Source: Bacteroidales bacterium (GTDB lineage Bacteria > Bacteroidota > Bacteroidia > Bacteroidales > Prolixibacteraceae). Taken from it: a stretch of DNA of 37,267 bases. This document shows positions 7,404 to 35,053 of the stretch, piece by piece. Each line of letters opens with the position of its first letter. Position 1 is the stretch's first letter. The DNA lies in the NCBI GenBank assembly GCA_031285325.1, contig JAITWJ010000011.1:1-37267 (forward strand). The letters run 5' to 3'. Made by a program: the position numbers and the translations under genes. A model generated the notes under the pieces. It saw nothing but the letters and a program-made list of their open reading frames with translations, had not been told where the DNA came from and searched no databases.

Positions 7404-7580
7404 AGAAACTTCTTTGAATTTCGGGAAACAGGTAAAAACAATTAATAATGGACAATGGATAATTAATAACTGTTATTAATTGCTTAGGCGGGGGTAGCAT
7501 CAATTGATGAAATTATGCCCGAGGGTTCGGCGAAGGTAGCATCAACTGATGAAAGCATGCCCGACAGGCTCGGAATAACA
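7404..7580 (+). repeat. 42-bp-module element, copy A (two modules)
   Basis: The left end AGAAACTTCTTTGAATTT (7404-7421) resembles the family's 18-bp end. Next comes an AT-rich leader with a perfect inverted repeat AATTAATAA/TTATTAATT (7461-7469 / 7473-7481). Two GC-richer modules start at 7493 and 7535, exactly 42 bp apart. Module palindromes are CATCAATTGATG and CCGAGGGTTCGG, centred 21 bp apart. No right-hand inverted end is evident, so the copy may be truncated. With the ettA upstream region it fills the gap 7313-7613. Confidence 0.75.
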
Positions 7581-12268: not shown

Positions 12269-12349
12269 CAAATAATTACGCACAACGTTAACGCTTAATA
12301 CATTTTACAGTGCGCGCCGAACATCATTCATTACAGAATGGCAAATAAG

Positions 12350-12601
12350 AATCGAGCGAAGTCGATTGAGATTGGCGCGAAGTCAATTAAGAATTGCGCG
12401 AAGTCGATTAAGAACCACGCGGAGCCAATTAAGAATTGAGCGGAGTCAATTGAGATTGGCGCGAAGCTAATTAAGAATCGCGCGGAGTTAAATGAGAATT
12501 GAGCGAAGTCGATTGAGATTGGCGCGGAGCCAAATGAGAATCGAGCGAAGTCGATTGAGAACTGCGCGGAGTCGATTAAGAACTGCGCGGAGCCAATTGA
12601 G
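12350..12601. repeat. Array of twelve 21-bp tandem repeats in the hisC-hisB gap
   Basis: Twelve units of exactly 21 bp without an indel, close to AATTGCGCGAAGTCAATTAAG, followed by a decayed thirteenth. Many units carry inverted arms around an 8-bp centre. Arms change together: AATTG/CAATT in unit 5 against AATCG/CGATT in units 1 and 10. At some unit borders CAATT-AAG-AATTG forms a second palindrome. Because 21 is divisible by 3, frames stay open across the array on the minus strand; I do not take these as genes. The rest of the gap (12269-12349 and 12602-12862) holds GCGCCGAACA twice (12314, 12689) and nothing else I can name. Confidence 0.9.
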
Positions 12602-12862
12602 ATTAACCGGAAGTAAAACAAAAATCAATATATATACATAATTAATTAATTGTAGAACATAAAGGAATAAGAATAGCATAAAAATTATGCGCCGAACAGC
12701 AAACAGGTTCAGTAAAAATAGAACGGGCTCAGAGAATAGGCCTGTGCGCACTGCGAAATAACAAAACAACTTACGGATTTATAAACTGTTCAGAAAATTA
12801 TACAGGCGCTTTAACAGTTTAAAACACATGACGAAGCAAAAATAACCCTTGATAATTTTTAG

Positions 12863-18888: not shown

Positions 18889-19032
18889 GAAACTGTTTTG
18901 AATTTACCTGACAATTTTTTACCCTCGAAACAGGTAGCGGAACTTCCCGAAAGGTTCCCTGAGGGGTCGGGCAAGGTAGCGGAACTTCCCGAAGGCAATT
19001 TGCCTTTCAAAATTCATATTCAAAACAATTTA
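18889..19032 (+). repeat. 42-bp-module element, copy B (one full and one partial module)
   Basis: The left end GAAACTGTTTTGAATTT starts at 18889. The right end holds the inverted ATTCAAAACA (19018-19027). The leader, ending ACCCTCGAAACAG, is nearly identical to that of copy D. Modules start at 18933 and 18975, exactly 42 bp apart, with a GGAA-C-TTCC palindrome and a GC-rich second palindrome; the second module is truncated. It fills most of the gap 18747-19055. The remainder (18747-18888) shows nothing beyond the purL upstream region. Confidence 0.8.
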
Positions 19033-21098: not shown

Positions 21099-21542
21099 AT
21101 AAACTGTTTTGAATTTCGGGAAACATGGAAACACAATTGACAGTTGACTGGATAATTAATAACCGTAATTATTAATTGCTTGGGCAGGAGGTTGTTCAGA
21201 TGCAGGTTTTTTATTTTCGTAATGAACAATATAAATGTGAATAAACGGCAGGTTAAACGGGTGTCGCTCCGGAGCGAAAGCATGCCGGAGGGCTCGGCGA
21301 GGGTGTCGCTCCGGAGCGAAAGTATGTCCGAGGGGTCGGCGGGGGTATCGCTCCGGAGCGAAAGGTTCCCCGAGGGGTCGGCGAAGGTATCGCTCCAGAG
21401 CGACAGTGTTCCGTAAGGGTGTGCGGTTGCACGGCCGGTTCTCGACAGTACGGGCTGACGGCTTTTAGGGGGTAAAGGAATAAGTTGGGAGAAGGTAAGG
21501 TTTCAAAAAAAACGTGTCGGGTAAATTCAAAACAGTTTCTTA
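21099..21542 (+). repeat. 42-bp-module element, copy C (about four modules, full inverted ends)
   Basis: The left end AAACTGTTTTGAATTT (21101-21116) is matched by the inverted right end AAATTCAAAACAGTTTCT (21523-21540). TATA flanks the left end and TTATA the right, but no certain target duplication can be called. An AT-rich inverted repeat in the leader (21154-21162 / 21169-21177) matches that of copy A. Modules start at 21260, 21302, 21344 and 21386, each step exactly 42 bp; the last is degenerate. Module palindromes are TCGCTCCGGAGCGA and CCGAGGGGTCGG, centred 21 bp apart. About 110 bp of other sequence separates the last module from the right end. Small frames across the array are by-products of a period divisible by three. 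It fills most of the gap 20922-21649. Confidence 0.85.
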
Positions 21543-24223: not shown

Positions 24224-24445
24224 AGAAACTGTTTCTAATTTGCCAAATAAGTTGTCGGAAGTTCCCGCTACCCTGCCCGACCCCTCGGGGAACCTTTCGG
24301 GAGTTTCCGCTACCCTGTTCGACACCTCGGGGAGCCTTTCGGGAGTTTCCGCTACCTTGCCCGAGCCCTCGGGGATACTTTCGGAAGTTTCCGCTACCCT
24401 GTTTCGAGGGTAAAAAATTTGCCAAATAAATTCAAAACAGTTTCT
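24224..24445 (-). repeat. 42-bp-module element, copy D (four modules, inverted orientation, both ends present)
   Basis: The element is 222 bp, with AGAAACTGTTTCTAATTT on the left (24224) and AAATTCAAAACAGTTTCT on the right (24428-24445) as inverted ends. Read on the minus strand it has the same leader as copy B, then modules beginning at 24398, 24356, 24314 and 24272, each 42 bp apart. The first module has CGGAA-AC-TTCCG and CCCGAG-GG-CTCGGG, centred exactly 21 bp apart. It fills the middle of the gap 24140-24550. Frames across it are repeat artefacts. Confidence 0.85.
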
Positions 24446-33646: not shown

Positions 33647-33650
33647 CCGC

Positions 33651-33710
33651 GCTGCGTGGAAGAATTTGAGATTGATTGCAACCACATGAAAAAAAGCTAA
33701 AACAATCATG
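33651..33710 (+). promoter_or_regulatory. SAM-II riboswitch upstream of metK
   Basis: The order of elements fits the SAM-II pseudoknot. P1 5' strand GTGG (33656-33659); P2 5' strand GATTG (33670-33674); conserved ATTGCAA (33675-33681); P1 3' strand CCAC (33682-33685); an A-rich loop with the invariant GCTAAAA (33696-33702); and P2 3' strand CAATC (33703-33707), fully complementary to GATTG. P1 can extend only through G-U pairs past one C-A mismatch. SAM-II is known from alphaproteobacteria and Bacteroidota ahead of methionine/SAM genes, and the gene here makes SAM. Binding should reduce metK expression. It lies ~90 nt before the ATG. Confidence 0.75.
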
Positions 33711-33799: not shown

Positions 33800-35053
33800 A
33801 TGAATTATTTATTTACAAGCGAATCTGTTTCGGAGGGGCACCCCGATAAGGTTTCCGATCAGATTTCCGATGCATTGCTTGATCAGTTTTTAGCATTTGA
33901 TGCAAACTCGAAAGTTGCAATTGAAACATTAGTTACTACAGGACAATTGATAGTTGCAGGCGAAGTAAAATCGAAAACGTATGTTGATGTACCCGAAGTG
34001 GCACGTGAAGTAATAAACCGGATTGGTTATACAAAAACAGAATATCGTTTCGATGGCGATTCGTGCGGTGTTATGGTTGCCATACATGAACAAAGTCCTG
34101 ACATTAACCGTGGGGTTGATAAAACCGACAAAAATGAACAAGGTGCAGGAGACCAGGGAATGATGTTCGGCTATGCCTGTAAAGATACCGATAATTATAT
34201 GCCATTACCGCTGGAGTTGTCGCACATTATTTTGCAGGAACTGGCAAGTATCCGCCGTGAGGCAAAAGTTATGAGATACCTTCGTCCCGATTCAAAATCG
34301 CAGGTAACTGTTGAATATTCGGAAAACAATATTCCGCTAAAAGTACACACTATAATTGTTTCAACTCAACATGACGATTTTGATGCCGACGAACCAATGC
34401 TGGCAAAAATAAAGGAAGATGTTATAAATATACTTATACCACGAGTTATTGCAAAGTTGCCCGAACGTTTGCAAAAACTATTTGGCAACGATGTTATTTA
34501 CCATATAAACCCGACCGGTAAATTTGTAATTGGCGGGCCGCATGGAGATACAGGATTAACCGGACGAAAAATTATTGTTGACACTTACGGTGGCCGCGGC
34601 GCACATGGCGGCGGGGCTTTTTCAGGGAAAGACCCCTCTAAAGTTGATCGTTCGGCAGCTTATGCAGCACGCCATATTGCCAAAAATCTTGTTGCTGCCA
34701 GCGTTGCCGATGAAATTCTCGTACAAATTGCCTATGCTATTGGAGTTGCCGAACCTGTAGGCGTTTATGTAAACACATACGGGCGTAAAAATGTAGCCAT
34801 TTCAGACAGTGAAATAACCGAAAAGATAAAACTCATTTTCGATCTTCGTCCTGCAGCCATTGAACAAAGGCTTAAACTGCGGAATCCGATATTTTCGGAA
34901 ACTGCTGCATACGGGCACATGGGCAGAACACCGGTAACGGTTAAAAAGAAGTTTAATTCTCCTTATTTTGGAAGTATTGAAACCGAAGTTGAACTTTTTA
35001 CCTGGGAAAAACTCGACTATGTTGAAACAATAAAAGAAACCTTTGGGATTTAA
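33800..35053 (+). CDS. metK: S-adenosylmethionine synthase
   Basis: The product is 417 aa, the somewhat long form usual in Bacteroidota. N-terminal [20 protein letters not shown], then the signature [12 protein letters not shown] and [19 protein letters not shown], cover the ATP and methionine sites. It makes SAM from ATP and methionine. SAM in turn serves DNA methylation, including by the N6-methylase at 852-2780 if that is expressed. The leader carries a SAM-II-like riboswitch, so feedback by its own product is likely. The gene looks intact and is probably transcribed alone. Confidence 0.97.

Follow-up and report, generated by a model that had tools for sequence, protein, structure and literature searches.

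Tandem 42-bp palindromic arrays in a Bacteroidales genome resemble gene-less forms of the arrays upstream of DUF6261 genes

Iteron and operator arrays are tandem, helically phased sites in front of an initiator or regulator gene and are conserved in sequence. The arrays described here likewise place tandem, phased sites before a gene, but only their period and their dyads are conserved. Among dispersed elements, a close precedent is BrickBuilt of Porphyromonas gingivalis, a MITE with a 23-nt unit in 19 copies and IS5-like ends GAGACCTTCGCA (PMC4596501). The likeness covers the intergenic MITE, the IS5-type ends, the internal tandem minisatellite of variable copy number and the host, a Bacteroidetes species. 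With units of 41/42 bp instead of 23 nt and with ends GAAACTGTTTTGAATTT instead of the GAGACCTTCGCA type, the elements studied here are not members of BrickBuilt; furthermore, its main text does not use the word palindrome and names no linked gene in the account it gives of the element (PMC4596501). REPIN/RAYT systems, as far as described in the portion cited here, combine a gene that has its own palindromic repeat flavour alongside with dispersed gene-less copies, the flavours matching the genes. RAYT is, however, a tyrosine transposase and REPINs are inverted pairs, whereas we find a helical protein and period-keeping tandem arrays (PMC3116915). Finally, GTAG/CGTC repeats are palindromic, intergenic and show complementary stem changes, and their CGTC type is reported in Bacteroidetes; they differ by units of 20-40 bp that carry a constant terminal tag and occur single, paired or grouped, according to the part of that survey used here (PMC3733652).

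The window, i.e., the whole stretch of 37,267 nucleotides that was analysed, is one entire contig of a 149-contig, 2.16-Mb genome (96.7% complete). A preliminary description, made from the letters of this stretch, had reported four intergenic elements (A-D) built of exact 42-bp modules that start with GGTA or GGTG. Register, module starts and the coordinates of all four elements were re-derived from the sequence. Element C (21099-21542, plus strand) has a Y-type left end at 21100-21116 and an X-type right end at 21523-21539 (1 and 0 mismatches) with TTA on both flanks. Its four 42-bp modules span 21260-21427 (starts 21260, 21302, 21344 and 21386, the last one diverged), and the three complete ones (21260-21385) carry the inner hairpin triplet GCT/AGC. 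Element A (7404-7580, plus strand) has a Y-type left end as its sole end (7405-7421, 2 mismatches) and modules at 7493 and 7535, the first with the palindrome CATCAATTGATG and the second diverged at its end. Element B (18889-19032, plus strand) is bounded by an X-type left end (18889-18905, 0 mismatches) and a right end at 19016-19032 (3 mismatches); one complete module (18933-18974) is followed by an incomplete second from 18975. Element D (24224-24445) has ends at 24225-24241 (left, 2 mismatches) and 24428-24444 (right, 0 mismatches), TAA on both flanks and three complete 42-bp modules at 24272-24397. End matching with up to 3 mismatches thus bears out both the inverted ends and the single left end of A, and the modules of D on the minus strand bear out its opposite orientation.

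The claim that module GC content lies far above the background holds for the complete modules of B-D (0.60-0.71 vs. 0.386 for the whole window) and is weaker for the modules of A (0.48-0.52). All four elements lie between genes when compared with the long ORFs, with two caveats: a 603-aa ORF of the mechanical ORF list starts at a TTG inside element A, with ATG codons further in, and a 115-aa ORF spans the modules of element C. The window's arrays gave no match to the covariance models of Rfam 15. A 21/63-bp tandem repeat of about 12 copies (AGAATTGCGCGAAGTCAATTG; 12342-12602) in the same window is unlike the 41/42-bp arrays.

The inverted ends can be written GAAACTGTTTTGAATTT / AAATTCAAAACAGTTTC with the putative target TWA; extended, they take two forms, X (GAAACTGTTTTGAATTTACCGGATAAG..) and Y (GAAACTGTTTTGAATTTCGGGAAACAGGG..), with mostly T-A/T-A flanks. 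Further copies in the genome had been expected, and they are numerous: the 17-bp end (at most 2 mismatches) matches 57+58 = 115 times in the source genome, where its reversed pattern gives 2+2. A search for two modules in 42-bp register gives 40+69 = 109 (overlapping matches, not arrays), and its reversed pattern 0+0. Copies in related Bacteroidales, which the preliminary description had proposed to look for, present a divided picture. A 20-bp version of the end (at most 1 mismatch) is found 67 times in the source genome and at most once per genome in 60 relatives (matched in 7), 36 of which were called same genus. In this comparison with 60 relatives, the ends are almost confined to the source genome, while the kind of array also occurs in other Bacteroidota. 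Two genomes called same-genus (G031, G005) hold an element of about 165 bp (L094, L096) whose ends, GAGACTGTTTTGA...TCAAAACAGTCTC, are similar; TRF gave no array inside it.

For 28 end pairs both ends lie on one piece. TWA is present on both sides in 15 of them and identical in 11/15, as a short target duplication would give (p = 0.06); 13/28 do not have TWA on both sides. A 41/42-bp array lies inside 17/28 pairs; the other pairs enclose different repeats (CGTC-type inserts among them) or a transposase piece. Conversely, of 37 42-bp arrays, 15 are bounded by two ends, 16 have an end at one side and 6 have none, counts that are biased since the DNA examined was chosen largely by ends. Examples of the different repeats are C28:20643-21407, C95:8759-9618 and C36:27781-28561, where CGTC-type palindromes of the form CGTCACTGCGAG...GCAGTCC together with TTGACAATTGTCAATT-like repeats are nested with or replace arrays. 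Several ends are less than 400 bp from a contig end (C32, C59, C101, C128 and C147 are among these contigs); the repeats thus probably break the assembly and the copy counts are minima.

A transposase gene carrying the same ends, RAYT-type or other, had also been suggested as a check. Two matches to DUF4096, which we take to be a domain of IS4/IS5-type transposases, exceed the cut-off. The first, on C101, contains two stops and lies inside the end pair C101:15128-15738 (3 and 1 mismatches); the second, on C25, is a 184-aa frame adjoining the single end C25:27367-27383. A third match on C63 is below the cut-off and unlinked to ends. No intact copy was seen in the assembly, none of the genome's five PF01609 genes lies between such ends, and a RAYT-type gene was not found in the source genome. 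Given the TWA-flanked ends and the DUF4096 pieces inside or beside such ends, the carrier looks best read as an IS5-type MITE family and is, as such, a further case of a known kind.

The arrays inside this carrier follow a rule of their own. Repeat finding in the first stretches examined gave periods of 41 or 42 with differing sequence in many elements. In the 42-bp type, a hairpin is closed by a clamp TC..GA, and its three inner base pairs vary between arrays in a compensated manner: over 37 arrays, 87/111 cells are Watson-Crick pairs compared to 35.3 when shuffled (maximum 56 in 10000 shuffles), and the inner triplets are perfectly complementary in 15/37. Stems of 7 bp with loops of 3-4 nt are common, and 16/59 array consensuses are without a 5-bp stem. 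At DUF6261 loci, 52/54 lags above threshold equal 41, 42 or 82-84; the values 40 and 43 do not occur. The unit sequence, in contrast, turns over quickly. Only 46 of 3550 pairs with less than 60% protein identity have units that are at least 60% identical, and DUF6261 proteins that are 84-87% identical can carry unrelated units.

We further scored dyad symmetry in 84 distinct units. Their best dyad reaches 0.835 vs. 0.677 for shuffled units, and a second dyad appears at exactly half the period, with mean scores of 0.56 (41 bp, 36 arrays) and 0.45 (42 bp, 48 arrays). Any other offset scores 0.18-0.33, and 50 shuffles of the full 84-unit set never exceeded 0.275. For 42 arrays without gene from named genomes the half-period dyad scores 0.605 vs. 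0.252; here, the second palindrome is free of bases imposed by the search pattern only if the best dyad is the first one. The half-period score is failed by 4/9 representatives of the source genome, including both of the window's class; by eye, the hairpins of element D can be drawn 21 bp apart. A dyad every 20.5-21 bp corresponds to two turns of B-DNA. The period is locked, each unit has on average two palindromes half a period apart, and the sequence is mostly unrelated between loci.

Arrays of this kind are linked to genes of the DUF6261 family (PF19775). In the source genome, all four full-length DUF6261 genes have a 41/42-bp array within the upstream 700 bp, and the end pair C6:10535-12068 encloses such a gene plus its array; a fifth match, on C93, comprises just 91 aa and has no TRF array. 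DUF6261 is present in 46/393 genomes of the order and in 12/395 of the phylum sample. We compiled 93 loci of the order without regard to arrays, i.e., the 4 own genes, the best locus of each of 29 other genomes (drawn from 45 other DUF6261-bearing genomes of the order) and 60 further loci among the matches listed, best E first. The set includes paralogues and the duplicate pair L287/L306, and 89 loci are long enough upstream. The best lag falls into {41,42,82,83,84}, for which chance gives 5 of 81 lags, in 78/89 upstream regions, in 10/83 regions 700-1400 bp upstream and in 5/93 downstream regions; the period is absent upstream in 11/89. Respective TRF arrays of 41/42 bp are found upstream in 24/33 and downstream in 1/33 of the best-of-genome loci and own genes. 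Outside the order the ratio is 15/16 vs. 1/16, where 3 of the 15 positives reach identities of only 0.50-0.53, L369 and L374 (one genome) share an array and the sub-cut-off L368 was dropped. Both finished named genomes, Prevotella nigrescens and Parabacteroides distasonis, show the period upstream of DUF6261 (2/2).

The linkage is also visible when starting from the arrays. Among the named-genome matches listed, a three-module pattern occurs at no fewer than 108 loci, i.e., at least 108 (103 named, 5 unnamed; one array counted twice). Hairpin-like modules are present in 69/108, and DUF6261 lies within 1 kb in upstream relation at 14/69 of these vs. 2/39 of the non-hairpin loci. The reversed control of the pattern matched 7 and 4 times in G203 and G341, respectively, perhaps in coding repeats. 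A general flanking repeat around arrays was not seen outside the source genome.

Many arrays stand without a gene. When hairpin arrays are defined by 6 or more of 9 paired cells, 30 of the 36 with at least 1 kb on both sides lack, among the matches listed, a DUF6261 gene that lies within 1 kb in upstream relation; counted in the 36 are one array twice and a few matches outside Bacteroidota that are probably due to chance. We searched 28 Bacteroidota genomes for PF19775, leaving aside L127, L158, L163, L164, L174, L175 and L203 (outside Bacteroidota), L119 and genomes already showing DUF6261 elsewhere. Among the matches listed, the family is present in 17/17 genomes reached through hairpin arrays without DUF6261 in the examined stretch, where only L116, L120, L130, L133 and L206 have 1 kb on both sides and the gene could be just beyond the stretch elsewhere. 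For comparison, the respective shares are 46/393 in the order and 12/395 in the phylum sample. Genomes with weak hairpins have DUF6261 in 6/11 cases, one of them below the cut-off. The 17 array-bearing genomes hold 1 to 33 DUF6261 matches each; G825, G821, G829 and G831, with 26 to 33 matches in genomes of 2.0-2.9 Mb, show an unusual expansion.

Within the source genome, single linkage yields six main unit classes of arrays, four of which contain one DUF6261 gene each. Elements C and D of the window belong to the same class as the DUF6261 gene on C69. At C107, a 26-codon stub with 92% identity to the start of the C6 DUF6261 gene lies beside a gene-less array of the C6 unit class; here, derivation by gene deletion is seen directly. 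Further stubs at C139 and C47 (E 0.011) and a very weak one at C1 (E 0.73) have the expected place and direction, unlike that at C144 (E 0.4). No stub came up in the reversed control. This search for gene remnants found no DUF6261 stub adjoining any of the window's four arrays. The array is not peculiar to the window element: it looks like the gene-less form of the array found upstream of DUF6261 in the sampled Bacteroidota. The window elements probably derive, by loss of the gene, from a cassette of array plus DUF6261 inside an IS5-type MITE.

Taken from the computations are the array-gene linkage, the locked period, the palindromes spaced on average by half a period, the stem compensation, the fast turnover, the arrays without gene and, in the source genome, the single gene-less array that still has a DUF6261 start. 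To account for them, we favour a two-layer reading, to which we give a probability of roughly 0.47: an IS5-type MITE carrier would hold the array half of a locus made up of a DUF6261 gene and an upstream 41-/42-bp array acting as a phased-DNA site. An IS5-type transposase, present in the assembly in pieces only, would move the MITE in trans. The array may serve as a double-stranded-DNA site whose palindromes face one side of the helix, two turns apart, and its binder may be an oligomer with two-fold symmetry, in the simplest case the DUF6261 product, which might control or organise its own locus in this way; a host protein as binder would fit equally well. Gene deletion would leave gene-less arrays behind, which in the source genome the MITE ends would then have copied round the genome.

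What can be said of the protein itself bears on the binder. DUF6261 proteins are acidic (median pI 5.7, n=120), and the predicted model is a helical bundle (mean pLDDT 89.8, pTM 0.58) with no significant Foldseek match, such that nucleic-acid binding is not obvious. Simple site recognition by DUF6261 is weakened by the acidic protein together with the turnover of unit sequence. We found no clear relative by sequence or fold and no conserved neighbour gene. Literature searched by the names DUF6261 and PF19775 gave no study of the family, the name DUF6261 appearing only in a row of an unrelated table in the part of that source seen (PMC10376253). An unverified 'Bacteriophage sp.' record (L379, MT837725.1), probably a bacterial contig, has a DUF6261-like frame beside frames that by eye are HU-like and restriction-modification-like.

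A bolder extension, which we hold to be rather doubtful, is that DUF6261 and array form a new two-part element without transposase, whose cis site would be recognised by geometry instead of sequence and whose gene-less arrays would be decoys or satellites. Each copy would then be free to rewrite its array sequence while the array keeps working, and gene-less arrays would relate to gene copies as REPINs to RAYTs. In the literature searched, no kind was found that fits an array tied to a gene, locked in period and bearing dyads at half the period. DUF6261 gains a first functional handle in a non-coding partner whose spacing and symmetry define it although its sequence turns over. The spacing/symmetry rule can serve to find and test the system. 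It may also account for a group of scattered repeats at which assemblies like that of the source genome break.

A simpler account would take the elements as plain IS5-type MITEs with a BrickBuilt-like minisatellite, the array being passive filler that grows by slippage and DUF6261 incidental cargo. The ends, the TWA flanks and the IS5-type pieces agree with it, as do the BrickBuilt precedent, in the part of the description relied on here (PMC4596501), and the orientation relative to adjacent genes, which is random (of 41 arrays that could be placed, 15 are tandem, 14 divergent and 12 convergent; the remaining 10 of 51 lie at edges). We nevertheless consider it unlikely: the array-gene link holds where these ends are not seen, the upstream frequencies of the period inside and outside the order strain the cargo view, and period plus half-period dyads are kept despite sequence turnover.

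Instead of a DNA site, the array could act at the RNA level, i.e., as hairpins in the 5' leader of the DUF6261 transcript through which expression is controlled. In 85 DUF6261 loci the distance from the end of the array to the start codon is 5-549 bp, and the common 7-bp stems with their short loops would suit this. Stem mismatches are mixed evidence concerning DNA versus RNA. In the source genome A-C outnumbers G-T (36 vs. 9), and A-C on the strand read equals G-U on the complementary strand, i.e., on the strand of the gene at loci where array and gene run in opposite directions; the named genomes, however, are without such an asymmetry (G-T 23, A-C 19). Given the A-C excess of the source genome, we lowered the probability of the two-layer reading from 0.5 to 0.47, raised that of the RNA leader somewhat and slightly reduced those of recognition by geometry and of the passive filler. 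We still judge an RNA leader rather improbable, as 20 DUF6261 loci gave no Rfam family at the gathering score and as it gives no reason for the locked 41/42-bp period or the half-period dyads.

Palindromes could also arise mechanistically, through hairpin-primed slippage and template switching without a selected function, the unit length reflecting the reach of an enzyme. This would account for arrays that are homogeneous within and different between each other, for the compensatory stem changes and for the fast turnover. It leaves unexplained the array position upstream of one gene family and why array-bearing genomes have DUF6261, and seems quite improbable to us.

The preliminary description had offered 'MITE or REP/BIME-like' as the layout, of which the MITE half is supported by the number of copies, the inverted ends with their TWA flanks, the location between genes and the IS5-type DUF4096 pieces. 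Spread by a RAYT-type (Y1) transposase as REP/BIME-like repeats is very improbable: some modules do begin with GGTAG plus a hairpin, and the gene-plus-flavour pattern recalls RAYT/REPIN as partly described (PMC3116915), but the source genome has no PF01797 match (5/14 control genomes are positive), the units are direct tandem repeats, not inverted pairs, and the start tag varies (GTTTC, AAATC and GTATC are seen) without a constant GTAG/CGTC tag, which refutes this origin as far as a 96.7% complete assembly allows.

Apart from these elements, the window contains a SAM-II riboswitch above the Rfam gathering score (33650-33710), located upstream of ORF 33800-35053, which is presumably S-adenosylmethionine synthetase-like.
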